The notes below the pieces were generated by a model. That model worked only from the letters and a program-made list of their open reading frames with translations, did not search any database and was not told the origin of the DNA. A program made the position numbers and the translations under genes. Positions 3,491 through 35,407 of a DNA stretch of 35,409 bases are shown here, one piece after another. Source of the DNA: a virus; the IMG/VR virus record IMGVR_UViG_3300042373_000389, positions 1 to 35,409 of that record; one strand, 5' to 3'. How positions within the stretch are numbered: the first letter of the stretch is position 1; each line of letters starts with the position of its first letter.

Positions 3491-3982
3491 ATGGCAAACA
3501 CCCAATCAATGTGCACTTCATTTATGAGCGAGCTAATGCTTGGTCAGCATCAACTTGGCACTTCAACCATCGTATCCCGTGGCAGCTTGACATCACCCAC
3601 TACAGATACTGTAAAAGCTGCTTTGTACTTGGCATCGGCAACCATCAATGCAGCCACTACTGCGTACACAGTAACTGGAGAAGTTTCTGGTACAAACTAT
3701 GTTGCTGGCGGAGTTACGGTAACAAATGCTACGGCTCCAACGTCAACTAACACTTCAGCAACTGCTGGTGTAGCGTACTGGACTCCTTCAGCATCAATTA
3801 CCTACACCACGGTGACCTTAACCACGGCGTTTGATACTGTGTTGCTGTACAACTCAACACAAAGCAACAAGGCTATCAGCGTCCACACGTTTGGTTCACA
3901 GACCATCACGGCGGGTACTTTCACTTTGACTATGCCGTCAAACACTACGTCAACTGCTTTGTTGCGCTTGGCAACTACCTAA
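3491..3982 (+). CDS. Beta-rich virion protein, paralogue of 2843-3283
   Basis: A 163-residue Thr/Ser/Ala-rich, all-beta protein. The core from about residue 38 aligns with the protein at 2843-3283 (shared T-D-x-x-K-A-A-L-Y, T-A-Y-T-V-T-G-E-V, Y-V-A-G-G and the final strand), so one arose by duplication and divergence. It has a longer N-terminus (about 35 residues) that the paralogue lacks. An AAGGA Shine-Dalgarno sequence precedes the ATG at 3491. Its last codons form the 5' arm of a perfect hairpin that includes the ribosome site of the next gene. Probably a virion decoration or tail-surface protein; unproven. Confidence 0.7.
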   Translation: MANTQSMCTSFMSELMLGQHQLGTSTIVSRGSLTSPTTDTVKAALYLASATINAATTAYTVTGEVSGTNYVAGGVTVTNATAPTSTNTSATAGVAYWTPSASITYTTVTLTTAFDTVLLYNSTQSNKAISVHTFGSQTITAGTFTLTMPSNTTSTALLRLATT

Positions 3983-3992
3983 AGAGGTAGTT
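3973..3992 (+). promoter_or_regulatory. Hairpin spanning a stop codon and the next Shine-Dalgarno
   Basis: A perfect 8-bp stem (AACTACCT at 3973-3980 pairing with AGGTAGTT at 3985-3992) with the 4-base loop AAAG. The stop codon of the upstream gene (3980-3982) begins in the 5' arm and the AGAGG ribosome site of the gene at 3994 runs into the 3' arm. The structure would hide the ribosome site until a ribosome finishing the upstream gene melts it. This is the standard logic of translational coupling; the pairing is seen, the regulatory effect is inferred. Confidence 0.55.
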
Positions 3993-3993
3993 C

Positions 3994-4890
3994 ATGGCTC
4001 TCGGCTGGGGCAACAATGCTTGGGGCGACAACGGCTGGGGCGGCACTCTTGAAGCAACGGGGGATGTAGCAACAGGAACCGTAGGGACGGTCACGCCCAG
4101 TCGGACTGTTGCGTTAAGTGGGGTTCTGGCTTCTGGGGCGGTTGGGACTGTTGTTGAGACAAATAACCCAACAGAAAACGGCAATATTGCTTTTGGAAAC
4201 GTGGGCAGTGTTGGAGTTTCCCGTGTAATTTCTCTGACTGGCGTTTCTGCCGCAGGATTTGTCGGCACAGTCGCAAGGGGCACAACCTCCCTTGCCTTGT
4301 CTGGTGTTGTGGCCGCTGGCAACCCCGGTATTGAGACAGGGAACATCACAGTTGCCATATCCGGCACCGCTGCTTCAGGGTTTGTTGGCACAGTAACGCA
4401 CAGCAAGACTGCCGCCATATCTGGCGATGAAGCCACAGGTGAAGTCGGCACAGTTGTCCAGAGTGCGTCTGTTGAGCTGGTAGGCGTTGAAGCTGCTGGC
4501 CTTGCAGGATATGTAATTGTTCCGCTGTTGCCTAACACAGCCATCGGCACTGTTGGCACGGTTATTCCCGAGATAGTGATTGAGTTGACCGGCAACGCGG
4601 CAGATGCTGCTGTTGGCTCGGTTGCTGTTGGAGAAAGAACCTTCTCGCTGACTGGGAACCAAGCGGCTGGATATGCTGGAGCTATAGTTGCCGTCTACTG
4701 GAGGCTGATTGATGACAGTCAGACTGCGGATTGGGGCACAATCTCTAACATACAAACGGCTGACTGGTCAAATATAGATGACACGCAGACCGCAAACTGG
4801 CAAAATATCAGCAACCCGCAGACTCCCGGCTGGTCACTGATTGCCGATGAGCAAAACCCGAATTGGGAAGAAATTGAGGTAACAACATGA
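3994..4890 (+). CDS. Repeat-built virion protein (about 20-residue and 11-residue repeats)
   Basis: A 298-residue protein made of three parts. A short Trp-Gly-rich start (G-W-G-x-x-A-W-G) is followed by about nine copies of a roughly 20-residue unit with the pattern L-S-G-x-x-A-x-G-x-V-G-T-V (residues about 18-225). It ends with five copies of an 11-residue unit of the type I-x-D-x-Q-T-A-D-W. The first repeat family looks like stacked beta strands. The second, with a Trp each 11 residues, is familiar from phage structural proteins. The Trp-Gly start resembles a W-G motif inside the nozzle-like protein at 10673-13210. It lies directly before the tail fibre and overlaps it by ATGA, so a fibre-adjacent role (stalk or collar) is plausible. 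No enzyme motif is present. Confidence 0.7.
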   Translation: MALGWGNNAWGDNGWGGTLEATGDVATGTVGTVTPSRTVALSGVLASGAVGTVVETNNPTENGNIAFGNVGSVGVSRVISLTGVSAAGFVGTVARGTTSLALSGVVAAGNPGIETGNITVAISGTAASGFVGTVTHSKTAAISGDEATGEVGTVVQSASVELVGVEAAGLAGYVIVPLLPNTAIGTVGTVIPEIVIELTGNAADAAVGSVAVGERTFSLTGNQAAGYAGAIVAVYWRLIDDSQTADWGTISNIQTADWSNIDDTQTANWQNISNPQTPGWSLIADEQNPNWEEIEVTT

Positions 4891-13939: not shown

Positions 13940-15970
13940 ATGAGTCTACAGCTTGCCGCTCAACATCTTTCTGACCAAGGCCGTGGCCCCGACACAAGCC
14001 TTGTTCACATGTCGCCGCGTGAATTAAAAAGCCTTAGTGATTTGGCTATGGCGCATGGTCATCAACTGACCATTAACCCAGAAACTGGACTGCCCGAAGC
14101 GGGCGTTTTGGACAAGTTGTTGCCCACCTTGATTGGCGCGGGCATCTCGTATTTCTCAGGCGGCACAATCAATCCAGCAATGATTGGGTTGGGTATTGGC
14201 GGTTTGCAAGCAGCTCGTACTGGCAGTTTGGAAAAAGGTTTGATGGCTGGTCTGGGTGCCTACGGCGGTGCTGGTTTGACTGCTGGTTTTATGGACACGG
14301 GTGCTTCCCTTGCCGCGCAAACGCTTGGTGCTGAAAATGCTTCAACTGCCGCCACCCTTGGCGCAGATTCAAGCGCACGGGATATTTTGCTGGCTCGGAA
14401 TTCAGCTCCTGCTATGGAAGCTATTTCTCCAATGGGCAGCTTAACTGCTGGTGCCAGAGCGGCGGCGGATGCGCCAATGGACTTCTTCAAGAACAACTAC
14501 GGCAAGATTGGTATGGCCATGAGCCCCATCATGGCCGACATGGCGGTGCAAACCAAGACGCCAGTTCCTGCGCAAAGCCCAAGCTACATCCGGCCATACC
14601 AAATGCGGCGCACAGTTCGCCAACCAGAAGCTAATATTGGTTCCAGAGAGCAGAACTGGTTTGATACAGAGTGGTCACCCGGTACACCGTATAAAGCAGC
14701 CAATGGCGGTATTGTTGCCTTGGCCAAGGGCGGCGCTGTTTCCTTTGCTGGTGGCGGCATGACATCGCAAGATGCCTATGACTTTTTGATGGGCAAGACT
14801 TCCACCACGCCTACACAAACAACTACCAAGGCTCCGTCATACGAGGGCCACTACGAGTTTGACACGGCAACCGGCACGACAAAATGGATTCCTGCGCGGA
14901 TGGATACTACTGATGCAACAGATATTGAGGATAAACCTACTTCTGTTGTGCAAGCTCCTACAGGCGGTGGATATAGCAGCAACCAAGGCAATCAAACACC
15001 CGGCACAAGCGGGCTCCCCACCAGTCTGGTTGATGGCGGAGGGAAGATAACCCCATTGGCAGTGCCGTCGTTGGCGTTGAGCAAAATGGGCGATGCTATT
15101 ACAAATACGCTGGGTTATATTGCATACAAAATGGACGGCCCTCGTCAAGGAGAGCCTGCGCCTATATCTGACAGCCTAACTTTTAATGATTCGCCTAACT
15201 TTACGCAAGTTGAGGGCGTACCAACGCCGGGCGATACAGGGGTGACGACTTCTGGCCTTGCAAGCTTGTCTGGTATTAACGGCCCCGGCGTGCCATCAAC
15301 CACTCCCGGTAATGCCGTAAGTTCAGCTATGGGCGGACAGTCCGCTGCGGCTACAGGAACTACTGGTGGTGGAACTACTGGAGGTACGCCGGGCGCTCCT
15401 GCTCTTGGCGTAAACAGTGGTGGTGGCTACGCAGTGCCGGGTGGTGGAACTACTGGTGGTGGAACTACTGGTGGTGGAACTACTGGTGGTGGAACTACTG
15501 GTGGTGGAACTACTGGTGGCGCTCCCGGCGCTCCCGGTCTTGGCGTAAGTAGTGGCGGCGGTTTTGGAGTTACGGGCCCCGGCGGGACTGCTGGAGTGGG
15601 GGGTACGGGCGGAGGTGGCGGTGGTGGTGGAGGCGGCGGATGTTGTTTCATCATGCTAGAAGCCCGCTACGGCAACGGCACTATGGATCGCGTCGTCCGA
15701 CGTTACCGCGATGAAAAAGCCACCGAACAAAACAAGCGCGGCTATTACAAATTGGCTGAAGTGTTTGTGCCTTTGATGAGAAAGTCAAAACTGTTCAGTG
15801 CGTTTGTCGTCCTCACTTTTGCTGACCCCGCTGTTCATTACGCAAAGTGGTACTACGGCGAAAACAAATGGGGCTGGGTGTTTACCCCGCTAAGAAAGTT
15901 CTGGCTGGGTCTGTTTGACACTCTGGGTTCAGACACAAAATTTATCCGTGAAAATGGGGAGGTTGTGTAA
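13940..15970 (+). CDS. Gly-rich internal virion-like protein with CFI-box-like C-terminus
   Basis: A 676-residue protein. The N-terminal part (1-180) includes Gly/Ala-rich hydrophobic stretches (about 45-110) that could meet a membrane. An A-A-N-G-G-I-V-A-L-A-K-G-G segment lies near 253-265. A Ser/Thr/Pro/Gly linker follows, including five 15-bp DNA repeats and a run of over ten glycines. The last 109 residues are a distinct domain starting at C568/C569 with C-F-I, then A-R-Y-G (575-578) and R-R-Y-R-D (587-591). This resembles the bacterial CFI-box C-terminal domain (C-F-I-A-T-A-A-Y-G), also preceded by Gly-rich linkers. A GAGG lies 5-6 bases before the ATG. Probably an ejection or virion-interior protein from its neighbours. 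Confidence 0.7.
   Translation: MSLQLAAQHLSDQGRGPDTSLVHMSPRELKSLSDLAMAHGHQLTINPETGLPEAGVLDKLLPTLIGAGISYFSGGTINPAMIGLGIGGLQAARTGSLEKGLMAGLGAYGGAGLTAGFMDTGASLAAQTLGAENASTAATLGADSSARDILLARNSAPAMEAISPMGSLTAGARAAADAPMDFFKNNYGKIGMAMSPIMADMAVQTKTPVPAQSPSYIRPYQMRRTVRQPEANIGSREQNWFDTEWSPGTPYKAANGGIVALAKGGAVSFAGGGMTSQDAYDFLMGKTSTTPTQTTTKAPSYEGHYEFDTATGTTKWIPARMDTTDATDIEDKPTSVVQAPTGGGYSSNQGNQTPGTSGLPTSLVDGGGKITPLAVPSLALSKMGDAITNTLGYIAYKMDGPRQGEPAPISDSLTFNDSPNFTQVEGVPTPGDTGVTTSGLASLSGINGPGVPSTTPGNAVSSAMGGQSAAATGTTGGGTTGGTPGAPALGVNSGGGYAVPGGGTTGGGTTGGGTTGGGTTGGGTTGGAPGAPGLGVSSGGGFGVTGPGGTAGVGGTGGGGGGGGGGGCCFIMLEARYGNGTMDRVVRRYRDEKATEQNKRGYYKLAEVFVPLMRKSKLFSAFVVLTFADPAVHYAKWYYGENKWGWVFTPLRKFWLGLFDTLGSDTKFIRENGEVV
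15440..15514 (+). repeat. Five perfect 15-bp tandem repeats
   Basis: Five exact head-to-tail copies of GGTGGTGGAACTACT encode five G-G-G-T-T units; a single isolated copy lies at 15365-15379 and a partial unit follows the array. The unit length is a multiple of three, so gain or loss of copies would change linker length by five residues without breaking the frame. This is a typical slippage target. Confidence 0.95.
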
Positions 15971-20547: not shown

Positions 20548-20571
20548 CCTTGGCGCAAAGTCCCGCCAAGG
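20548..20571 (+). terminator. Hairpin between transglycosylase and giant gene
   Basis: A perfect 8-bp stem, CCTTGGCG (20548-20555) with CGCCAAGG (20564-20571), and an 8-base loop, followed by TTTCTCAACTTTT. It has the same 8-bp/8-base plan as the hairpin at 8143. It may act as a leaky terminator or as a 5' mRNA structure for the giant gene. The possible TTG start at 20550 lies within its 5' arm, which argues against that start. Confidence 0.45.
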
Positions 20572-20597
20572 TTTCTCAACTTTTAAAAGTAAAAGCT

Positions 20598-23500
20598 ATG
20601 GCAAAAAGTCTCCCATTACCAGACGGCACATCGGTAACTATCAGGGAGGGCGAAACGCCCGAAGAGACTTGGTTGCGTGCAATACGCGAATACCCCGAAG
20701 CGTTTCAACCACCAGCGCCTAAAGAAGAAGCAGCCGGGCCAACTGCTGGTGGGCAAGTTAAAGAGTTTTTCAAAGGCTTAATTCCCGGCGGCATTGGTTT
20801 AGTTGAACAAGCTGGCACAGGTATATCCGCGCTTCTTCCTGAAGAACAAGAGCGAGCCGCACAACAATACATTAAAGAAACAGCCGCCACAGCTAAAGAT
20901 CCGTTTGCCGCTGCTCCGGGGTACGAAGACACGATACCGCGCAAGTTTGGTGAAGCTACGGGTTCAATAATCCCTTTCCTTGCTACCGGCCCGTTTGGTG
21001 TGGCCGGTCGTTTGGCGGGTTACGGCCTTGGTATTGGCGCTGGCGCTGGCACGCAGGTAGAAAAATCCGCTGCTGAAGGAGCTACAGCAGGAGAACAAAC
21101 CGTTGCCACTGCATTGGGGAGTGTGGTTGGTGCATCGGAAATGTTTGCTCCCACACGTATTCTGAAACGTCTTGGAGAGCCGGTACTTGATGGCGCTACG
21201 TCGTACATAAAACGTGCGTTGATGGCAGGCGGTGAGGAAGCCGCACAAGAAGCCGCAGCACAAGCCGCACAAAATATTATTACCAAAGGTATATACAAGC
21301 CTGAGCAAGAAATTATTGAGCAGGTTGGAGAATCTGCTGCTTATGGCGGCGCAGTTGGCGCATTAGCGCAGGGTTTGTTGGATTTAGCGTTAGGGCGCAG
21401 AGGTGCCGGAACAGCTTTACAGCAAGACCAACAGCCCCCCGCCTCCGAAGCCGCTGCCATCCCCGAACCTACCTTGCGTGAAGTACCGACACCAGAAAGT
21501 GCTGTGGGTATGCCCGAGGCTGAACTGCTTAAAGAAGCGCTTTCTCCCAAGAAACGGGCGGCAATGGACAAGCAGTTGGCCAAAGACCAACAAGCCTACC
21601 TTGAGAAATACCACACACTGGCCCAGCAACGAGAGGCTGACCAAGCTGAGCGCGAACGTATTGCGGGAATGTCTCCCCAAGAGTACATGGAAGAGCTGGC
21701 ACAAACGGTCAAAGCAAGCAAACCTGTAAAGGGTATGCCCATACCGGTTGGCGAAATGCCTGTTTCCGAGACCGAAAGCTACGCCATTCAACAGCTTGCA
21801 TTGGCCAAAGACCGTGAACCCTATGCGGAGACCGGTACGTATGTAAATTATTTGATGGTTGACCCCGCGATGGCGCGGCAACTTGCACTTTCTGAGCAGC
21901 CCATCCCCGGGCTCAACACCAGCACCAACTACAAAGTTAAAAACGCAATACTGAGCGCACTTGAGGCACAAGACAAAGCCGCTGCTAGAGTCGCGGCCCA
22001 AGCCAAAGAAGCAACGGCAGTTCGCGGACAACAGCTACTGACCCAAACAGGTGCACAAACCAACCAAGAACTGTTGGGTGCAGCCAGAGAAACTACCCCC
22101 GCCCAAGCGCAAGCATGGGAACGTGCCGAGCGCGAAAGAATTGATGCACAAGAACGTGCAGAAAAAGACCGCATTGCCAAGCTGACACCGGAAGAGTACA
22201 AGGCGGAACTCAGCCAAGTACGGCAAGAGCCGTTGCCCGAAGAAGAACCAGCGCCAGCAGAAGAGCCTTTGCTTGACCAGCTTTTTAATTCATTGCCTCG
22301 TGACCAAGGCCGGGTAACCCCCGGACAAGTCTACGAAGGTTTGGGAACCAAGCGCGGTACGTTGAAAGATTTGCAGTTGCAATTGGCAATTGCGCGTATG
22401 ACAGAAAACACGCTTGTAGCCCGCAGACTACAGGCAGAACTGAACGACCGCCGCAAAGAGTTAAAAGAACCAATTGAGCAAACAGGATCAGGTCAGCTTA
22501 CAAGAGAGCTGCCCGGAGTTACAGAAGGCGTACCCAAAGTTACGCCAGAATCTCGCGCCAAACAAATTGAAGCCGACAAGTTTGCTGATGAGCAACGCTC
22601 AACCATGCTGGGTTTGGTCAAGACACTGAACACTCGCAACCCGCTGAACCTAAGTCAAACACGCCGAAGCGCCACACTCAGTTTGCCCGGAGTGTTTGAG
22701 AAACGCGTCAGCGATGCCAAGGAGGCGTTTGCCGCAGCCCACGCCAACGAAATTGAAGCTCGCCGTGCCGTTTTTGGTTTGCCGCCTATGGCCGACTGGG
22801 AACGTGCAGAAGCCCGCGCTCGTTCATTGGAAGCTTTGAACGAATTGGAAGGTCGTTGGAATACGTTTGGTGCTCCTATTGAAGCTGTGCAAGTTCTGCA
22901 ACAGCAAGTGCGTGACGCTACCAACCAGAATTTGTTAAACGCTACCAAGCGTTTGAACCAAGAAACGCGGGTTGAAAACCAAGAAAAAATCGGTCAGCCC
23001 GGGCAAAAGTACACCAATTACAAGGGCGAGCCAATCAATGTTCCACGTGAAACAGGCCCTCGTGTTGGCGCACCAAAAGAACTGACGCTCAAAGCAACCC
23101 CTCGTCGAGCAGGGGACGAGCGCCAAGATGCCCTCAACTTGATTGAAACCGTTCTGCGTTCTGTTGAGCGCCGTACTCGTGGTGTGCCTGTGGCAGGTGA
23201 AAAGCCGCCCACTCGTGTTGGCAGCATGGAAGACATTGCCAAGCTGTTTGAAAAAGAGAAGACCAAGGGCGCATCTGAAAAGACTGATCCGGCTACTATC
23301 GAGTTGCTCAGCCGCCTGCGTGACCACTTAGAAACATCTGCTGATCCTGAGTTCATCTCTCTTGCCCGTGAGCAAGCGCAACAAGTTATGGAGGGCAACC
23401 TGCCCAATCCGTTTGCTGTGCGTGATTTGAATGAAATGATGCTGGGTCGGGAGGTGGCAGGACGCAGTGAAAGCAGACCGCTGTCCAAAGAAGAAACCGC

Positions 23501-26500
23501 CGCCGTTGTTCGTGGCGAGCAGAAGTACGAAGCGCAGCCTCAGAAAGACTTGTTCCCAGAAGCAAACGTGCAAGTTGTTCGAGCCACGCCTGCCAACTTC
23601 CAACGGTTGCTGGACTCCAAAGATATTCAAGGCATGCGCGAAGCCTTGAATATACAAAAAGAAGAAAACAAAACCGCGCTTGAGCAGATTAAAAAGTACA
23701 TCCCGTCATTGCAAAGAGATATGCAAGCGGCAACCAGTGCGCTGAACAAGGCGTTGGCAAAGAAAGAAACACTGACCCAAGCCGCTGCTGAAGCCAAAGG
23801 AGAACCTGACTGGTTTGCGCCTGCTGTTCGCAAGATTGTGGAGTTGGAATCTTTGTTGCAGTCTGTGCCCCCACGGCTGGATTCTTTGCGCAACATCCAA
23901 CGCGCTATTCAGGGCCTAAACGAAAAAGACAAAGCCGCTTTGTTGGAACTGGCAGAAAACGCACACAAGACTTCTGCAACTCCTGATGAACGTGCGGACT
24001 TCAACGAGATTGTTCGAGCACTTAAAACACCAGACGCATTCAACGCAGAAATAAAAATGTTGAATGACGCGGTTAAAAACGCCAACAAGCTGATTGACAA
24101 CGCCAGAAACGCCCTTGACGACTTGATGACCCAGTACCGAAGCGGTGAAACAATTCGTAAGTCTTTGGAACGCGAAGCCAGTAAAGCTACCCGCAAAGTT
24201 GAACGCCTGACAAAAAGCTACAACGACATCAAACGTGAATTGGCGCAAGAACGTGCTGCGCGTGAGGCTGAAGAGAAAACCAAAATTAAAAAAGAGCCAG
24301 AAGAACAGGGCGTATCTACCGAAGAATACAGAGCTGCGGCCCAACGTGGGCGTGAAGGTATGGGTTTGCCCGGTGTGCGTGCGGAGAAAGACACGACTCG
24401 CATGCGGGAAAACATGAACAAAATTCGCAGTGAGATTGGTAGCCTTAACGAAGAGTTGCGCAAAGCTGAGAAAGCTGAAAACACTGGGCGAATGGAAGAG
24501 CTGCAAAACAAGATTGCCGATGCCGAAACACGGCTGGCTTCTGTGTACAGGGACGCTCCTCTTAATGTCAAGGAATTGCTTACGTTAGAAGAAGCGCGTG
24601 ATGCCCGCGCTGCTGCTGACCGCCTCGCGGCTGAAGATGCCGTTGTTGAAGCCAAACGTAGAAAACGTAAAGGCGAGAGAGCGCCCAAGCTGGTGCCAAT
24701 TGAGCAGACGTCCTTACTCAAGGAAGTGCGCGGGTCAAAGATTACCCAGCCCTACAAAACTGCGCGTGTAACTGAAACCGCAGAAAAAGTAACTGACCGC
24801 CTCATTGAACAAAGAACTGCGCTGGCCGAGTTGCAGCGCCGCATTGCTTACCTCAAAGATAACAACAAACACAAATCGGCAGGGCGTTTGACTGACGCGT
24901 TCAAAGATTTGCAAGGCAAAGAAGCGTTGCTCAAAGAAAAGCTGAAGAAAACGCAAGCTTCGCAAAGCACCATTGTTCGCATTGAAAAAGAAGCTGAAAC
25001 AAAAGCCAGCAAGGAAGCGCAGAAACAAGCACTGAGCAAATCCAAAGCAGCCGAGAAAGAATCCGAGCGCTTTGCCCGTGGCGTGGAGATTGAAAGCCCT
25101 GACCTTACTGCGGCACAAATCAGTGCCATTGAAGAGAACGACGTTACTGCGGCTTACGCCGACATTGCCAACGACAAGAGCAACAGCGAAGTAAACCGGG
25201 CCGTGGCGCAACGTTTGGCGGCTTTGCTGGACGACACCGACATCGCCATCCGCGACAAGCTGACAGACCAAGACGGCAAAGAAGTGCTGGGCATGGCTAC
25301 CAGCAAGACCATTGGGCTGAACCGCAACGGTGGTTTGTCTCAGGAAGTGTTCTTGCACGAAGGCGTACACGCCGCTACTGAGCGCGTTATTCAATTGCCC
25401 GAAGGCCGGTTGACAAGAACCCAACTGATTGCCAAACGCGAATTGATGGCGTTGCACAACGTAATTAAGAACGACCCCAGCTTTACCAGCATCAGCGCCA
25501 AGAGCAGCCTGTCTGAGTTTGTGGCTGAAGCCATGTCCAACCGCAATCTGCAAGAACAGTTGCGCGGTAAGAAATGGAAAATGTCTGATGCTTGGGAAGG
25601 TTTCAAGAGCATTGTCTTGCGTATGCTGGGTATCCAGCACCCAGAAACGATGTTGGGCGCGGCGTTGCAATCTGTCGATGCACTGATGGTTCCATCTAGC
25701 GTGGACTTGGGCGTGGAGGAAACTGCCGTAAGCCGCCGGTTGTCACAGAAAGACATTGCCGCACTGCATGACGGTAGTAACTCCATGAAGCAGTTTGCCG
25801 ACCAGTTTGGCAAAGACATCAAACAGAAAGACCGCACACCAGACGACGTCGAACGTATTGCAAAAGATTATTTGACGGACATGGAGCGTTCTCCCGACAA
25901 GTACATATCTGCGCCAACAGAAGACTCGTTGGATTACAGGGCGCAAACAATCATGTCTGATGGCAAGCCGTTTGATATTGATAACCCGTTGCACTATGTT
26001 GAAGCAGACGTAACAACTTTTGCAGCTTTGCAAGCTTTGGATAACAAACGACTGCGGGTTAAAGAAGCCGAAGAAATTCGCAAACAACGCGAAAAAGATT
26101 TGAAGTCTTTGATACGGTTGATGGCAAGCAACACCTCATACACACTTGCTGAAAACGCGCTTGTGGCCAAAGCCGCTTCTAAATACGCGGTTCTGTCTGA
26201 TAAAACTGGGCGCTTGAAGTTGGCAACTATTGCCGAAAACAATCGCCATAACGTCGCCGTTGTCAGCCTCGATGCTGCCGATGCAGTTATCCGCGAGTTA
26301 CGTGCGGGTAAGAATTTAAAAGAAGCGTTTCTTGACGGAATGCAGATAAGCGCTGATCGCGCAGCCAAAGAAAACGAAACCAAAGAAGGTTGGCAAAAGT
26401 TTGACCAAGGCGATTACGATGAACAAGAAGCGAGACAACCAATCCGTGAAGGCGTGCTGGCACGTCCAATCAGAAAAGATGGTACTCAACTACCGCCAAC

Positions 26501-29500
26501 ACGCACTTTAAGAACTACTGTTGTTCAAGACAAAATTATTGAAAAAGAAAATAATCGACGTCAAGATGCTGGTGAGCCGTTGCTTGAAACGCAAGGCGAC
26601 ATTGATCCAACTATTGATTTTTTGGAAGATTACTACCGCATACTTGAAGCATCGCCAAACAAGAATGAAAGTTTGGCAATTAAATTGAGCAAAGGTTGTG
26701 CGGGCACACCGTGGTGTACGGCTGGCGAAAGCACAGCGCGTGGCCAACTTAAACGTGGGGACTTCTACGTCTACTACAGACAAGGTACGCCTGAAGTTGC
26801 TGTTCGCATGGACGGTAAGAACGATATTGCTGAAGTGCGCGGAAACAGCCCCAACCAAGCACTAAACAAAGAACAGCAAGAAATTGCTGCCGAGTTTCTT
26901 AAAAAGAAAAATTTTGCTAATGGGGAAGAGTACTTGAACGAATTTGCTACCAAAGAAAAACTTATCAAAGTTGCTCAAGGTAAAGCAGAGATAACACCTG
27001 ACGATTTGGCAAACGCTGGGCGTTTGTTTGATTCTGAGGGTAAGTTAAATACGTTTACGTTTGAGCGTTTTTTCTCTTTCAGTACCGTGGACGGTCATAC
27101 ACGGCTTCGCCCAGAACCTTCTGACAAAGTTACTGAGTTCTTTGCAAAAAAATACAAAGTTGCAGCAGACGAAGCTTTTGAAAACGGTTATTTGTATTAC
27201 AACTCGGTTTATACATCTGACGTTAAAAACAACGCTCTTAAACTTAAGTTTGGAGACAAAACAAAAACGTTTTCTGTGGACGAAATAAAAGCTGTTTATA
27301 TGTTGAGCGTTCTTAGCGGCACAAAAGAAATTACATTTCCAAACTTGCAGACAGTTAAGGATTTGACTACGTTTAATGAAGGTACAGTAAATTTGCCGCA
27401 AGCGCAAAAAATTGAAACGTTGTTTTCATATGCAAACAAAAAAAATAAACCAGCAAAAGTTGTTTTGCCAGCAACCGCGTACATAAACAAAATAAGAACT
27501 TCAAGTAGTTCAGAAACTTTCTTAACTGTAGAAGGCCCTAAACACATTGGCACAGTACAGTTTTACAACAATTTTGGCGCACTGAACATTAGCTTGCCTG
27601 ACACGTTGTATGTTGAAGGCTCTATAAACTTTGGTTCTGTAGAAAACATGTTTTCTTACAAAATTAAAGAATTTTTAAATGCGTTTGGTGAACAAGCTGG
27701 TATTAAAAAAGCCAGTCAAAAGTTTGAAGAACTTTATGAAGGGGACACAGGCGAAACTGAAATTGCAATTGATGTGCCTGACAACCTTAGTGCTTTTGGC
27801 AAAACAATGATTGACCGCTTTAATGCCAGCGCCAAGCAGAAGTTTGGGGCAAAGCTTTTTAAGCGTTTGGTGGACGATAACGATTTGCAAGTTGCAAGTG
27901 AATCAAACGATCCGTTTGCCTACATTGATGCATTTAACGATAGTTACGGTGCATATTTAGAAGAAGGCCAAAAATTCGGTGGCGGTCAGGAAGAGCAAAA
28001 AAACCTTGTTACGTTGGCAGAGTTGTTTAACGACGCTTATGAAATTTCAACGGCAGACAAAATTAAAATACCAAAAGCTAGCGCAGACATGCCAAGCCGA
28101 ATTGCGGACACGCCTCCTGTCCAAGAACTAGTTGAGCGTACTGCTGAGCGCCCTGTGTATGCCCGCGCTCAGGCCAAAGGGTTTGAAAACGAACTGAACG
28201 TAGCAAGCCAAGTGATTGCCAAGCCCAAGACTATTGGGCAACAGATCAACGCCAACCTTGGTTTGAGTTTCCGTACCCAGTACTTGGACAGACTGGCTCC
28301 CTTGCACAAGGTAGCCAAGGATATGCTTGAGCCCTTCAAGGGCATGCAGATGATGCACTATTTGCTGGCATCCGACCAGCGCATGTCTTATGTTCAGCAA
28401 GCTGTTGGCAACGGCGTGCCCCAACGTGTGGCGTACAAGCGTCCTGATGGTCGCACTGAATACATTGTCGAAAGCGTTGCTGGTGCAAATTTGGCCAACG
28501 TGGTGCGCACATTAGCTAAGGCCCCGGGCATGAACGGCGAAGCGGCCAACCAGTTGTTCACGCTGTATTTGTTGGGCAAACGTGGTGACCGCGTGGGCTA
28601 CGACAAACTGAACTTTAGCGTCAACGCCGACTTAATCAAGGGTTCTGTTCGCAACATTGAGAGCAACGAAGCTTTGCGGGATGTGTTTGAGGAAGCGCGT
28701 ACCGAGTACAACAAGTACAACAAAAACCTGATGAACTTCTTGAAAGACACAGGCGTACTACCCCCAAGCGTTGCCGACGAGCTGGCCGCTACTAACGACT
28801 ACATCCCCTACTACCGGGAGAGAAACGGCAATGCCGAGTTGGTGATTGGCAAAGAGGGCACATACAAGATTGGCAACCTTGCCGACCAGCCACAACTGCG
28901 CGAGCTGATTGGTGGCGAAGACAAGATTCTTGACTTTGCAACAAGCTCGATACAAAACACCTCCATGATTTTGGACGTGGGCTTGCGTAACTTGGCAGCA
29001 AAGAATGCCATGTACGAGTTGGTTGGTTTGGACTTGGCACAGTTCTTGGGCAAAGACATTGCCGCGCCAGACGTTGTTCGGTTTAAAGACAAGGGCGAAG
29101 AAAAGTTTGTCCGTGTTGCTACCGACACTGTTGGCATCCCTGCTGACTTGTTGGTCAAGGGCATGGAAGGCATCCCTGTCAACACCAACGCGCTGGTTCG
29201 GGCAATGGGTTTTGCGTCAAGTGTTGTCCGTAAAGGCGTTATGTTGAGTCCGCTGTACCCTGTTAGACAATTGTTACGTGACTCAGTTGCCGCACCTTTG
29301 CTGTCCGGCGCTGATTTTGCGGGGCCTCTTGGCGCACTTAGAAAACTGGGTGCTGGAGAAACCAAGACCAAGTTGGAAACTCGTGGTATTACTGGGGGGC
29401 AGGTTTACACAGGCACCAACGAAGATTTGGCTCGCATTCTGAAAGACTTGATGGGCGGTCGTATGGGCCTGTCTCAGTTTGTTGCCAAGGCCGAAGCGAT

Positions 29501-30698
29501 TGCGATGGAGGCAGATGCCGCCACACGCCGCGCCCAGTACGACTCGTATATCAGGCAAGGTTTGTCACAGATGGAAGCCACCGTCATGTCGCTGGAGTCA
29601 ATGAACTTCAACAAACGCGGGCTGTCCCCATCCGTACACTTTGTCTCCACAATGATTCCGTTTTTCAACGCTCAATTGCAAGGTTTGGATGTGCTGTGGA
29701 GAGCTGTTCGGGGTGATATGCCCATGAATAAGCGTCTGGATATTCAAGGCAAGCTGCTGCGTCGGGGCTCTCTTGTTATGGCAACCGCTGTCGCATATGC
29801 CCTACTCATGCAAGACGACGAGGCGTACAAGAACGCACGTCCTGAAGAAAAGTACGGCAACTTCTTTATCCGCATACCGGGCTTGGATGAACCGATCAGG
29901 TTCCCTGTGCCGTTTGAAATTGGCTACATCCTCAAAGGTATTCCAGAAGCAATAGTCAACACTATGGCATCCAAGCAAGGTGGTGAAGAAGCGTGGAAAG
30001 CATTCAAGAGTATTGCCATCCAGACTATTCCCGGTGGTTCGTCAATGATGCTGCCTGCGTTGATTAAACCCATAATTGAGAACACCGCAAACTACTCGTT
30101 CTTTGGTAGGCAAGAGCTTGAGACCAAACGGGAACAAGGGCTGTTGCCAGAACAGCGTTTCCGTGACAACACGTCCGAACTTTCTAAAGAAATTGGGGCG
30201 CTGGTTGGATACTCCCCAATCAAAATTGACAACTTGATTCGTGGTTACACAGGCACGATGGGCTTGGCCGCAGCGCAGGCGTTTAGTTTTGCCATGCCCG
30301 AAAAACTGGGGCCACAAGAAGCCACCAAGCGCCTGTCCGATACCCCGGTCATTGGCTCCATGTTCCAGCCCAACGATGCTGGCGGCATCATCAACGCTAC
30401 CTACGAGCGCATGGAACAAATCATGGAAGTCAAGCGCACATACGATGACATGCTTAAGAGCGGGGAGACGGCTGAAGCCAGAGCGTTCTTGCAAGAGAAC
30501 GTAAATGAAATTGCTTCCGCGTCAATTGCTGGCAATGCCAAAACGCAGCTCGCAAAAGTAACGCAAGCCATGAACGCAGTCAAAGCTTCTAGCATGTCGC
30601 CAGAAGAGAAACGCGCGACCCTTGACCGGTTACAGAAACTGCGTATCCAGATTGCCAGTTCTATGAGGAACGTGCTCGATAAAACCGCACCCCAATAA
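20598..30698 (+). CDS. Giant polyvalent virion protein (zincin, WCTA insert, LPD38-like end)
   Basis: 3,366 residues from the ATG at 20598. A TTG at 20550 would add 16 residues but lies in a hairpin. Parts in order: a head (1-40); an Ala/Gly-rich region with a hydrophobic stretch (about 122-152) and G-I-Y-K-P-E-Q-E-I-I-E-Q-V-G; a long charged coiled-coil region (about 290-1490); a zincin motif H1587-E-G-V-H1591 with downstream acidic helices; a region of about 1715-2490 containing W2039-C-T-A, then G-D-F-Y-V-Y-Y and a solenoid-like AT-rich stretch; and a conserved end (about 2500-3366) with I-P-F-F-N-A-Q-L-Q-G, resembling LPD38. Such polyvalent proteins are thought to be packaged and injected with DNA. 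The zincin suggests a protease; its target is unknown. Confidence 0.8.
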   Translation: MAKSLPLPDGTSVTIREGETPEETWLRAIREYPEAFQPPAPKEEAAGPTAGGQVKEFFKGLIPGGIGLVEQAGTGISALLPEEQERAAQQYIKETAATAKDPFAAAPGYEDTIPRKFGEATGSIIPFLATGPFGVAGRLAGYGLGIGAGAGTQVEKSAAEGATAGEQTVATALGSVVGASEMFAPTRILKRLGEPVLDGATSYIKRALMAGGEEAAQEAAAQAAQNIITKGIYKPEQEIIEQVGESAAYGGAVGALAQGLLDLALGRRGAGTALQQDQQPPASEAAAIPEPTLREVPTPESAVGMPEAELLKEALSPKKRAAMDKQLAKDQQAYLEKYHTLAQQREADQAERERIAGMSPQEYMEELAQTVKASKPVKGMPIPVGEMPVSETESYAIQQLALAKDREPYAETGTYVNYLMVDPAMARQLALSEQPIPGLNTSTNYKVKNAILSALEAQDKAAARVAAQAKEATAVRGQQLLTQTGAQTNQELLGAARETTPAQAQAWERAERERIDAQERAEKDRIAKLTPEEYKAELSQVRQEPLPEEEPAPAEEPLLDQLFNSLPRDQGRVTPGQVYEGLGTKRGTLKDLQLQLAIARMTENTLVARRLQAELNDRRKELKEPIEQTGSGQLTRELPGVTEGVPKVTPESRAKQIEADKFADEQRSTMLGLVKTLNTRNPLNLSQTRRSATLSLPGVFEKRVSDAKEAFAAAHANEIEARRAVFGLPPMADWERAEARARSLEALNELEGRWNTFGAPIEAVQVLQQQVRDATNQNLLNATKRLNQETRVENQEKIGQPGQKYTNYKGEPINVPRETGPRVGAPKELTLKATPRRAGDERQDALNLIETVLRSVERRTRGVPVAGEKPPTRVGSMEDIAKLFEKEKTKGASEKTDPATIELLSRLRDHLETSADPEFISLAREQAQQVMEGNLPNPFAVRDLNEMMLGREVAGRSESRPLSKEETAAVVRGEQKYEAQPQKDLFPEANVQVVRATPANFQRLLDSKDIQGMREALNIQKEENKTALEQIKKYIPSLQRDMQAATSALNKALAKKETLTQAAAEAKGEPDWFAPAVRKIVELESLLQSVPPRLDSLRNIQRAIQGLNEKDKAALLELAENAHKTSATPDERADFNEIVRALKTPDAFNAEIKMLNDAVKNANKLIDNARNALDDLMTQYRSGETIRKSLEREASKATRKVERLTKSYNDIKRELAQERAAREAEEKTKIKKEPEEQGVSTEEYRAAAQRGREGMGLPGVRAEKDTTRMRENMNKIRSEIGSLNEELRKAEKAENTGRMEELQNKIADAETRLASVYRDAPLNVKELLTLEEARDARAAADRLAAEDAVVEAKRRKRKGERAPKLVPIEQTSLLKEVRGSKITQPYKTARVTETAEKVTDRLIEQRTALAELQRRIAYLKDNNKHKSAGRLTDAFKDLQGKEALLKEKLKKTQASQSTIVRIEKEAETKASKEAQKQALSKSKAAEKESERFARGVEIESPDLTAAQISAIEENDVTAAYADIANDKSNSEVNRAVAQRLAALLDDTDIAIRDKLTDQDGKEVLGMATSKTIGLNRNGGLSQEVFLHEGVHAATERVIQLPEGRLTRTQLIAKRELMALHNVIKNDPSFTSISAKSSLSEFVAEAMSNRNLQEQLRGKKWKMSDAWEGFKSIVLRMLGIQHPETMLGAALQSVDALMVPSSVDLGVEETAVSRRLSQKDIAALHDGSNSMKQFADQFGKDIKQKDRTPDDVERIAKDYLTDMERSPDKYISAPTEDSLDYRAQTIMSDGKPFDIDNPLHYVEADVTTFAALQALDNKRLRVKEAEEIRKQREKDLKSLIRLMASNTSYTLAENALVAKAASKYAVLSDKTGRLKLATIAENNRHNVAVVSLDAADAVIRELRAGKNLKEAFLDGMQISADRAAKENETKEGWQKFDQGDYDEQEARQPIREGVLARPIRKDGTQLPPTRTLRTTVVQDKIIEKENNRRQDAGEPLLETQGDIDPTIDFLEDYYRILEASPNKNESLAIKLSKGCAGTPWCTAGESTARGQLKRGDFYVYYRQGTPEVAVRMDGKNDIAEVRGNSPNQALNKEQQEIAAEFLKKKNFANGEEYLNEFATKEKLIKVAQGKAEITPDDLANAGRLFDSEGKLNTFTFERFFSFSTVDGHTRLRPEPSDKVTEFFAKKYKVAADEAFENGYLYYNSVYTSDVKNNALKLKFGDKTKTFSVDEIKAVYMLSVLSGTKEITFPNLQTVKDLTTFNEGTVNLPQAQKIETLFSYANKKNKPAKVVLPATAYINKIRTSSSSETFLTVEGPKHIGTVQFYNNFGALNISLPDTLYVEGSINFGSVENMFSYKIKEFLNAFGEQAGIKKASQKFEELYEGDTGETEIAIDVPDNLSAFGKTMIDRFNASAKQKFGAKLFKRLVDDNDLQVASESNDPFAYIDAFNDSYGAYLEEGQKFGGGQEEQKNLVTLAELFNDAYEISTADKIKIPKASADMPSRIADTPPVQELVERTAERPVYARAQAKGFENELNVASQVIAKPKTIGQQINANLGLSFRTQYLDRLAPLHKVAKDMLEPFKGMQMMHYLLASDQRMSYVQQAVGNGVPQRVAYKRPDGRTEYIVESVAGANLANVVRTLAKAPGMNGEAANQLFTLYLLGKRGDRVGYDKLNFSVNADLIKGSVRNIESNEALRDVFEEARTEYNKYNKNLMNFLKDTGVLPPSVADELAATNDYIPYYRERNGNAELVIGKEGTYKIGNLADQPQLRELIGGEDKILDFATSSIQNTSMILDVGLRNLAAKNAMYELVGLDLAQFLGKDIAAPDVVRFKDKGEEKFVRVATDTVGIPADLLVKGMEGIPVNTNALVRAMGFASSVVRKGVMLSPLYPVRQLLRDSVAAPLLSGADFAGPLGALRKLGAGETKTKLETRGITGGQVYTGTNEDLARILKDLMGGRMGLSQFVAKAEAIAMEADAATRRAQYDSYIRQGLSQMEATVMSLESMNFNKRGLSPSVHFVSTMIPFFNAQLQGLDVLWRAVRGDMPMNKRLDIQGKLLRRGSLVMATAVAYALLMQDDEAYKNARPEEKYGNFFIRIPGLDEPIRFPVPFEIGYILKGIPEAIVNTMASKQGGEEAWKAFKSIAIQTIPGGSSMMLPALIKPIIENTANYSFFGRQELETKREQGLLPEQRFRDNTSELSKEIGALVGYSPIKIDNLIRGYTGTMGLAAAQAFSFAMPEKLGPQEATKRLSDTPVIGSMFQPNDAGGIINATYERMEQIMEVKRTYDDMLKSGETAEARAFLQENVNEIASASIAGNAKTQLAKVTQAMNAVKASSMSPEEKRATLDRLQKLRIQIASSMRNVLDKTAPQ
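26500..28080 (+). other. AT-rich segment inside the giant gene (WCTA / solenoid-like module)
   Basis: Hand counts of 60-base lines give about 35% G+C at 26881, 27361 and 27421, against about 50% at 25741 and 28201. The segment encodes W-C-T-A-G-E-S-T (from 2039), L-K-R-G-D-F-Y-V-Y-Y and A-E-V-R-G. These are followed by about 350 residues with spaced F-P-N-L, V-N-L-P, V-V-L-P and I-S-L-P strands, like a leucine-rich or beta-solenoid repeat. The composition break within one open frame suggests a module acquired from an AT-richer source. Boundaries are approximate. Confidence 0.65.
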
Positions 30699-33730: not shown

Positions 33731-33919
33731 TTAAGAGAACAGGTCGAGCTGTTGGGGGTTGTGCGGTGGAAACTCTTTTTCAGGAGCTATGGCAGTGAAG
33801 CGGCGCAAGAGTTCAATTTGCCAGTCGATTGGCGCACCAAACTCGTTGTCTTCCATGTACAGGGCAAAGTACTTGATGAGTTCTGTGTTGGTTAAGGTGC
33901 GAGGCCGTAGTGTTGACAT
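33731..33919 (-). CDS. Small conserved protein upstream of the primase-helicase
   Basis: A 62-residue protein: S-T-L-R-P-R-T-L-T-N-T-E-L-I-K at the start, a helical middle (Y-F-A-L-Y-M-E), I-D-W-Q-I-E-L-L-R-R-F and a tail ending Q-Q-L-D-L-F-S. I chose the ATG at 33919 because GGAG followed by AAAAAT lies just upstream; the in-frame ATG at 33931 would overlap that ribosome site. The C-terminal Q-Q-L-D-L-F recalls clamp-binding peptides (Q-x-x-L-x-L-F), so it may touch the host sliding clamp; this is inference from a short motif. The start overlaps the HTH gene by 28 nt. It has no other motif. Confidence 0.7.
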   Translation of the reverse strand: MSTLRPRTLTNTELIKYFALYMEDNEFGAPIDWQIELLRRFTAIAPEKEFPPHNPQQLDLFS

Positions 33920-34170
33920 ATTTTTCTCCATGCGTCGTCTGCTGAATGCGCTGATCTAAGAATTGTGAGAAGCGTCTCGACACGGTGCTCATACGCTGGG
34001 AAGATGTCGCCACCCTCGAACCAGTTGTAGACCGTCTGTCGTGACACGCCCAAGGCTTTTGAGATGCGAACAACTGAGAAGTTGTGATGCGCGGCCCATC
34101 GTCCAAGCTGGTTGCCTGAAGTCTTGGGCGCTCGCATGATCGCGTCAATTGTTTTTTGTGAGTAGGCCAT
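33892..34170 (-). CDS. Small helix-turn-helix DNA-binding protein
   Basis: A 92-residue protein with a helix-turn-helix at about 31-52 (F-S-V-V-R-I-S-K-A-L-G-V-S-R-Q-T-V-Y-N-W), the second helix being the recognition helix. An N-terminal helix and a C-terminal helical half (Y-E-H-R-V-E-T-L-L-T-I-L) complete it. It probably binds DNA as a small regulator within the replication module; repressor, activator or replication accessory cannot be told apart. Translation start is unusual: a strong AGGAGGAG is separated from the ATG by a UUCG hairpin (34176-34191), suggesting a structured ribosome site. It follows the ssDNA-binding-like gene by 30 nt. Confidence 0.8.
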   Translation of the reverse strand: MAYSQKTIDAIMRAPKTSGNQLGRWAAHHNFSVVRISKALGVSRQTVYNWFEGGDIFPAYEHRVETLLTILRSAHSADDAWRKICQHYGLAP

Positions 34171-34198
34171 ATTGCGGGGGCCGAAGCCCCCTCCTCCT
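34171..34198 (-). promoter_or_regulatory. Split ribosome site: AGGAGG + UUCG hairpin + ATG
   Basis: On the minus strand AGGAGG (34198-34193) is followed one base later by a 6-bp GGGGGC/GCCCCC stem closed by a C(UUCG)G tetraloop (34191-34176), then 5 bases and the ATG (34170-34168). The linear distance from ribosome site to ATG is 22 nt, too long. Folding out the 16-nt hairpin leaves 6 nt, the ideal spacing. I recall similar hairpin-bridged starts in phage T4 (genes 25 and 38). The sequence is seen; the role is inferred. Confidence 0.6.
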
Positions 34199-34200
34199 AG

Positions 34201-35154
34201 TTATTCATCGTCCCAGTCGGACACGATGTCGGCAAGCTTGCCCTTCTTGGCAGGCACGGCGGCGGCTTTTGGTGCTTCCTTGCGCACTTCAGGTTCCTCG
34301 TCAGCATCGGCCACGGGCGCGGCTTTGGCTTTCTTGGCTGGCTTGGCAGGGGCTTCGTCTTCCTCTTCCTCGGCTTCAACGACAGGCGGCTTACCAGCAA
34401 GCACCATCTTGGGAGCGTTGGCTTTCACGCCATCGCTTTGTGCCACGGTCATGACCACTGCCCGTTGTGCATCTTCGCTCTCGGCTTGCGTCTTGATGAC
34501 TTCGTACTCGTCGTCGGTCAACCAGCGCACGGGCTTGAAGAACAACTTGGGGGACTCGGCCTTGGTATCAAAGCGCATCTCAGTCACGATCTGCTCAGGA
34601 TTCACAGGCGGGTTCTGCACGGCCAAGTAGCGGGCGTATGCCTGCAATGGGCGCTTGTCGCCTTCTTCCTTACCGAACACCGAAGTGGCAGGCAAGGTCA
34701 ACTGCATCACGTCGCCTGATGGGTTGTTGGCCAACACCACAGCCAAACGCTGTTGGTAGCGGCATGCACGGCTATTGCCTTGGCCAGAACCGGCTTGGTT
34801 CTTGGGGCAGTTCATGCAGGTCACTGCCTGTTTGTTTGCGGCGCTTGGGTCAGGACGCTCACCATCATTGCTCCAGCAGTCAGGGCCGGTGATGTTGTCG
34901 GCATCGTAGGACGATGCGTAGAAGATACGGCTGACCTTGGGTGCGGCTTTGACGATGATGACTTCCAGATGGCGGTCATCAATGGCGGCGACTTCCTTGC
35001 CACCAGCTACCAGACGGAACACACCACCTTTGATGGAGATGCGCTTGACGTTGGAGACGCTGCCGCCTGTGAGGGCTTTGGCTGTGTCGGAGAGTTCGTT
35101 GTTACGAGCGAATGCGGGAACGTTTGAGGATGAAAAAAGCGTTATGTTTGACAT
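34201..35154 (-). CDS. ssDNA-binding-like protein with Cys4 motif and acidic tail
   Basis: A 317-residue protein. The N-terminal half (about 35-200) is beta-rich, as in OB-fold ssDNA-binding proteins, with a zinc-like set C93, C113, C116 and C131. The last 75 residues form a Glu/Asp tract (E-E-E-E-D-E), a Lys/Ala linker and an acidic end D-I-V-S-D-W-D-D-E. Such an acidic, aromatic-containing tip is typical of SSB and T7 gp2.5 and recruits partner proteins. With the primase-helicase two genes downstream, a role as the phage SSB is likely; the fold is inferred, not proven. The weak AAGTGAG upstream overlaps the stop of the preceding gene, so the two are coupled. Confidence 0.65.
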   Translation of the reverse strand: MSNITLFSSSNVPAFARNNELSDTAKALTGGSVSNVKRISIKGGVFRLVAGGKEVAAIDDRHLEVIIVKAAPKVSRIFYASSYDADNITGPDCWSNDGERPDPSAANKQAVTCMNCPKNQAGSGQGNSRACRYQQRLAVVLANNPSGDVMQLTLPATSVFGKEEGDKRPLQAYARYLAVQNPPVNPEQIVTEMRFDTKAESPKLFFKPVRWLTDDEYEVIKTQAESEDAQRAVVMTVAQSDGVKANAPKMVLAGKPPVVEAEEEEDEAPAKPAKKAKAAPVADADEEPEVRKEAPKAAAVPAKKGKLADIVSDWDDE

Positions 35155-35161
35155 ATAAAAC

Positions 35162-35407
35162 TCACTTGGTTGGTTTGGTGATAACGATGTTGAACTCCGA
35201 GTGGGAGTTCAGTCCCGGGGGCAGAACCCCCGGGTTCTCTTCGAGAAACTGTGCCATGTTGGTTTGGGCGATGCGCTTCTCCAGCAACTCGATAGCGCCA
35301 TGCTCAAGGATGAACTCCTTGAATGAACCCCAGTCGTTTGTGTTGTAGCGCGTCGATTGACGCATGGACACAGTCCCAAAGGGACTCTTTACAGATGTCA
35401 GGCCCAT
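35162..35407 (-). CDS. Small unknown protein, start near the window edge
   Basis: An 81-residue protein with an R-Y-N-T-N-D-W-G-S-F-K-E-F segment, a helical middle and a C-terminal strand ending in I-V-I-T-K-P-T-K. I do not recognise a function. The ATG at 35407 lies 2 bases from the window edge, so the ribosome site cannot be seen and a longer or shorter start (M15) is possible. It ends 7 nt before the ssDNA-binding-like gene and probably shares its mRNA. The 3' half of the gene encodes three back-to-back hairpins (35192-35247). Confidence 0.6.
   Translation of the reverse strand: MGLTSVKSPFGTVSMRQSTRYNTNDWGSFKEFILEHGAIELLEKRIAQTNMAQFLEENPGVLPPGLNSHSEFNIVITKPTK
35192..35247 (-). promoter_or_regulatory. 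Three consecutive hairpins inside a coding region
   Basis: Adjacent perfect stems: GAACTCC/GGAGTTC (35192-35210, 5-base loop), CCCGGGGG/CCCCCGGG (35214-35234, 5-base loop) and TTCTC/GAGAA (35235-35247, 3-base loop). All lie in the gene 35162-35407, just before the ssDNA-binding-like gene. None has a T run. They may stabilise the mRNA 5' of the next gene or mark a processing site. Confidence 0.45.

Follow-up and report, generated by a model that had tools for sequence, protein, structure and literature searches.

The window, the whole 35,409-nt stretch of DNA analyzed here, comes from a freshwater-type phage. On its minus strand an 81-aa ORF, a 317-aa gene, a 30-nt gap, a 92-aa helix-turn-helix (HTH) gene, a 66-aa ORF and a 964-aa primase/helicase gene follow one another in that order. 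The gap runs from the 317-aa stop to the HTH start and reads TAA-CTAGGAGGAGGGGGCTTCGGCCCCCGCAAT-ATG. The features in and beside it are:

34201–35154, minus strand: 317-aa gene of the phrog_27714 family, with stop TAA at 34203–34201 and acidic tail SDWDDE
34193–34198, minus strand: Shine-Dalgarno sequence (SD) AGGAGG, 22 nt from the ATG
34176–34191, minus strand: 16-nt C(UUCG)G hairpin of six GC pairs, GGGGGC-UUCG-GCCCCC
34171–34175, minus strand: 5-nt spacer GCAAT, fixed in length and variable in sequence among relatives
33892–34170, minus strand: 92-aa HTH gene with start ATG at 34170–34168, matching HTH_23 (E=2.7e-6)

The 317-aa protein matched phrog_27714 with E=8.5e-32. It had no Pfam match, its relatives giving weak Gp3-like matches; a PDB sequence search with the family returned 0 matches, and a search of cultured phages found only distant matches, of at most 39% identity and partial coverage. 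An AF2 model of the protein, with a mean pLDDT of 56, was of low confidence; its best Foldseek match, the phiC31 RDF, was not significant (E=0.056). Because of these two results we infer only that the product is likely an ssDNA-binding or other DNA-metabolism protein. The HTH_23 match of the downstream gene bears out the earlier note's claim that a DNA-binding protein is encoded there. Its ATG is backed by conserved MAYSQ/MAYSE starts among relatives, and a cultured-phage search with this protein gave no match. The HTH gene and the next 66-aa ORF, which has no SD, overlap by 40 nt (33892–33931, minus strand). A strong GC stem, CCCGGGGG/CCCCCGGG, lies at 35211–35238, inside the final coding stretch of the 81-aa ORF on the minus strand.

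The hairpin arms, GGGGGC (34191–34186) and GCCCCC (34181–34176), enclose the UUCG loop (34185–34182). The unfolded spacing from AGGAGG to ATG shrinks on folding to the single A and GCAAT, 6 nt in all. This is the layout that the earlier note had described, an AGGAGG far from its ATG with a C(UUCG)G hairpin filling the gap, and every part of it was found on the minus strand. A second AGGAGG at 34195–34190 overlaps the first, its final two G's falling within the stem. SD-bearing genes of the window mostly have 4–7 nt between SD and start; the sole SD of the HTH gene, at 22 nt, is a strong one at a non-functional distance with none nearer, and the predicted fold of the intervening stable structure would restore a functional spacing.

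Predicted pair probabilities within the hairpin were 0.98–1.0 and the isolated hairpin was scored at -12.9 kcal/mol; the SD was partly paired in some predicted folds. The z-score of an 81-nt stretch was modest (-1.55) because the hairpin is short. C(UUCG)G-looped stems of 6 bp or longer appeared at 0.1 per dinucleotide-shuffled window (maximum 1 in 100 shuffles), and this low expectation together with conservation in relatives led us to reject a chance hairpin. A general 3'-end hairpin at every gene of the phage was rejected as well, since GGGGGCTTCGGCCCCC occurs a single time in the whole record. An Rfam covariance-model search of the window returned no match. We conclude that the hairpin is real and conserved, and that it is very probably folded.

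Elsewhere in the window, an 8-bp hairpin, AACTACCTAAAGAGGTAGTT, was noted at 3973–3992 (plus strand). The stop codon of the upstream gene (TAA, 3980–3982) lies in or near its loop and its 3' arm holds the SD of the next gene (GAGGT, with ATG at 3994), so it is likely a translational-coupling hairpin. A single 3382-aa ORF at 20550–30698 (plus strand), possibly a polyvalent virion protein, takes up nearly one third of the record, and a 676-aa ORF at 13940–15970 (plus strand) combines TTGGG-type repeats rich in glycine and threonine with a C-terminal domain of the CCFIMLEARYGNGTMD type.

For comparison we used 152 viral loci holding both 317-aa-family and HTH genes. Sixteen distinct contexts, with 11 distinct gap sequences, share the same 30-nt gap and form a close clade. 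Neither the 12 stem bases (0/12 positions varying in the 11 gap sequences) nor the AGGAG core showed any variation across the 16 contexts, in which nearby third codon positions differ at about 0.2–0.3; conservation of the paired bases was a check that the earlier note had proposed. Loops read UUCG or UUUG; the spacer varies at four of its five positions while its length is always 5 nt. One further relative with a shorter gap, L072, again has SD, stem and 5-nt spacer (GGAGA, hairpin, GTGTC, ATG). Because the stem is invariant within the clade, compensatory changes lend this particular hairpin no support; what is found in relatives is either a G-U-extended stem or GC hairpins unrelated to this one. 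SD, structure and spacing are conserved together inside the clade, while several wider relatives keep the structure without the SD.

A strong GC stem in an intergenic gap might also be an intrinsic transcription terminator or attenuator, lowering transcription of the HTH gene and primase operon, and in one relative (L315) the hairpin is followed by TTTTTG. The stem of the window is instead followed by GCAATATGG, with no U tract, it is absent from the terminator scan, and downstream of it, on the same strand, comes the primase gene. Lacking the combination of GC stem and U tract, and with the scan negative, this explanation was rejected as very improbable.

Among the wider relatives the stem proved separable from the SD. 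The earlier note had held that relatives keeping the stem but lacking the ribosome site would speak against a split site, and this is partly what we found. Hairpin and ATG occur without an SD at the HTH genes of L035, L036, L046, L051 and L057, and in leaders of a second gene family, MAIIFP, in L297, L298, L301 and L312; other leaders of the latter family (L293–L296, L314) have GGAG ahead of the structure. Elsewhere the same hairpin, after the same stop, precedes a different gene, and the SD of that gene comes after the hairpin (L016, L017, L021, L023, L054, L056, L058, L062, L065). Four of these loci, L016, L017, L062 and L065, serve as internal controls, with both SD arrangements coexisting in each genome: the hairpin following the 317-aa gene has no preceding SD because the next gene has its own, and another structured element, termed class C (see below), stands ahead of an SD-less HTH ATG and has AAGGAG upstream. 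L155 has an SD-less class C element and then an SD-split hairpin. In L155 and L314 a different gene, beginning MPIIFPSN, is preceded by AAGGAG, a UUUG hairpin and about 5–6 nt; its homologs in L006, L080 and L093 have class C RNA at that position, again with GGAG upstream.

The structure usually starts a few bases past a stop codon, and the distance from stop to structure is constant whatever gene follows. In the window the hairpin begins 9 nt past the 317-aa stop codon, and the clade's HTH SD sits inside those 9 nt. We tallied 106 distinct contexts after stops of the 317-aa family, finding 47 class C elements, 27 UUCG/UUUG hairpins, 17 other contexts and 15 that were almost gapless; the latter two groups include more GC hairpins, such as GGGGCGGC-NNNN-GCCGCCCC. 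All 88 distinct intervals from a 317-aa-family gene to an HTH gene hold at least one structured element under loose detection patterns, be it the UUCG hairpin, another GC hairpin or a class C RNA of ~40–100 nt. Several relatives start the HTH gene right at the upstream stop (TGAC-ATG or TAAT-ATG).

Two other kinds of insert were seen. In L014, L015, L090, L295 and L302 a third long element, TTTCGCTAGGCCGCAGTCGGCGGT(T/C)GCATTG...CTGCGTGTCCTAGCG, occupies the position between SD and ATG. Some inserts (L306, L309, L138, L142) have hairpins resembling a tRNA T-arm (e.g., GGCCGGTTCGATTCCGGC and GTGGGTTCGATCCCCAC) inside a closing stem; an ARAGORN search of the elements with such hairpins found no tRNA.

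SD placement was compared with ATG distance in 155 distinct element contexts from related phages, an ATG within 13 nt of the structure being called close. An SD just 5' of the structure was found in 29 of 60 close-ATG contexts vs 1 of 95 distant-ATG contexts (Fisher p=1e-13), and in the ...DE-stop family alone in 13/27 vs 0/21 (p=1.5e-4); both p-values overstate independence, as the contexts are phylogenetically related and the SD-upstream cases fall mainly in the HTH and IIFP families. No context (0/155) had an SD on both sides of the structure. Because 31 of the 60 close-ATG contexts had no SD at all, initiation at HTH and IIFP genes apparently does not require one.

These SD-less contexts lend weight to the suggestion that the hairpin serves the upstream gene alone, as a 3' element that acts either as an exonuclease barrier or as a processing/attenuation site. 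The AGGAGG would then be a remnant or of marginal use, and HTH translation would come from ribosomes that terminate at the stop 30 nt upstream and reinitiate. Such an account suits the relatives that keep the stem without an SD, those in which it follows the same stop ahead of a different SD-bearing gene, the tying of its position to the stop codon, and the HTH genes that begin at the upstream stop. It does not suit the constancy of the AGGAG core while the adjacent spacer drifts, nor the finding of an upstream SD in just one of the 95 contexts not needing it there, and we consider it rather unlikely. The split ribosome site proposed by the earlier note appears well supported for the HTH gene, given the invariant AGGAG and hairpin, the fixed spacer and the contrast in SD placement. 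The stem would not serve that site alone: relatives keep it without an SD, or with the SD of the next gene after it, which points to an additional role that needs no SD and is linked to the upstream stop codon. The earlier remark that the stem could block exonucleases would fit this part of its role.

Class C RNA follows the pattern GGGG(G)GAAAGCGGAUGC-variable-(GUG or GACG)CAGCGAGUACCCC(C). We found it in at least 120 viral contigs (e.g., L001:2858–2917 on the plus strand, L191 and L174). Among about 85,000 genome assemblies, two had it, both of them metagenome bins. Of 146 cases, 135 start 1–13 nt past a stop codon, and in nearly all long contigs searched the element is present as one copy. 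Its core, GGGGGAAAGCGGAUGC ... GCAGCGAGUACCCC, is invariant and loop-E-like. The neighboring variable stem (P3) covaries, its pairs being formed in 107/109, 105/109, 83/109 and 74/109 cases vs shuffle means of 83, 95, 48 and 43. MFE z-scores (median -0.4) were uninformative because the core is non-canonical. An Rfam search of class C loci gave nothing at E≤1 save one unrelated chance match; with neither the window nor its relatives matched in Rfam, a known RNA family was rejected.

Upstream of class C, a pattern-only scan yielded 86 proteins, of which 18 were phrog_27714, six Gp2.5/Enc34-type and five DUF669-type, while five matched other PHROG ssDNA-binding families and others have DD(I/L/M)PF tails; the association with ssDNA-binding genes is given as raw counts among these 86. 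Class C is apparently an undescribed RNA family, abundant, usually single-copy and often found after ssDNA-binding genes of unrelated families. It is absent from the window, where the UUCG hairpin occupies the homologous position. A second conserved, structured-looking sequence, GCCCAGCCGGAGGTGGCGC...AACACCGGCAGCGGGGGCTG...AGTGACCCCGCACC, was noted in L128, L131, L137, L149, L154, L155 and L156; it often comes right behind class C, or else follows another stop codon.

The single copy per phage genome, the invariant core and the recurrence after unrelated ssDNA-binding families would fit a site for a trans-acting factor, whether for autoregulation by the upstream or HTH protein or for an antitermination-type RNA, with the UUCG hairpin as one version of the site. 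The window, however, shows a simple UUCG hairpin of 6 bp that lacks this core, and the loop changes to UUUG in relatives; this role of the hairpin seems improbable to us. We give hardly any credence to a DNA-level module boundary, a recombination junction of mosaic phage genomes with no RNA function. The gene following the element does differ among relatives (HTH, IIFP, MSTFGTNP, MGLIIL or MDREQKFW), which speaks for such a junction, but the covariation of P3 in class C points to pairing at the RNA level, and SD placement tracks the structure.

The gene neighborhood of class C in the relatives recalls the STAXI motif, a structured RNA near genes for ssDNA-binding protein and other DNA handling (PMC2864571). 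STAXI consists of tandem pseudoknots; the class C loci had no Rfam match beyond the chance one.

We favor the interpretation that the hairpin is probably a post-stop RNA element of the upstream gene which, in the window's clade, also serves as the structured insert within an accommodated (split) ribosome site. The 30S subunit would pair with the AGGAGG ahead of the hairpin, and the GC/UUCG stem would be looped out and stay folded, placing the AUG at an effective 6 nt. The same stem may also act as a 3' element of the upstream cistron, stabilizing or insulating its mRNA end, since it persists where no SD needs it. For the split-site part, what was directly observed is the sequence, how it is conserved and that SD placement correlates with AUG distance.

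The earlier note likened the arrangement to that of T4 gene 25; the T4 parallel is apt, with gene 38 the closer of the two. In gene 38 the SD lies 22 nt from the AUG and RNA structure brings it to 5 nt, destabilizing mutations reducing initiation, and at the gene 26–25 junction an intercistronic structure between SD and AUG shortens 27 nt to 11 nt, in an arrangement conserved in close relatives only and missing from distant ones (PMC3014915). These two genes are proven precedents for ribosomes working across such structure (PMC3014915). The shift from 22 to 6 nt in the window nearly repeats that of gene 38, although the phage group and gene are different and the case here, known from sequence, concerns a post-stop UUCG hairpin that relatives keep without an SD or swap for other structures. 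With gene 25 the window shares a structure between SD and AUG at an intercistronic junction; where distant relatives of T4 drop the arrangement, relatives of this phage swap in other structured inserts. In E. coli thrS the hairpin is placed between two ribosome-contact regions, 5' of the SD, and not between SD and AUG. It is another accommodated hairpin, which the ribosome takes up within a split 5' leader without unfolding it (PMC3936740).

A broader proposal, which we advance tentatively, is that these freshwater phages must always have some structured RNA right after an ssDNA-binding-type gene, though its kind can change: a UUCG hairpin or other GC hairpins in some, class C RNA or longer multibranched RNAs in others. 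Class C would then be a new cis-acting family, and the SD would be placed across the structure wherever space behind it is lacking, giving split sites with inserts as long as about 130 nt. The novelty lies in the exchangeability of the inserts and in class C RNA, the split site itself being a known arrangement from T4. Split ribosome sites have so far rested on a few T4 examples. The relatives form a natural series: with SD and AUG unchanged in place, the insert ranges from a 16-nt hairpin to structured RNAs of 60–130 nt, so that the amount of structure a ribosome can carry between SD and AUG becomes directly testable.
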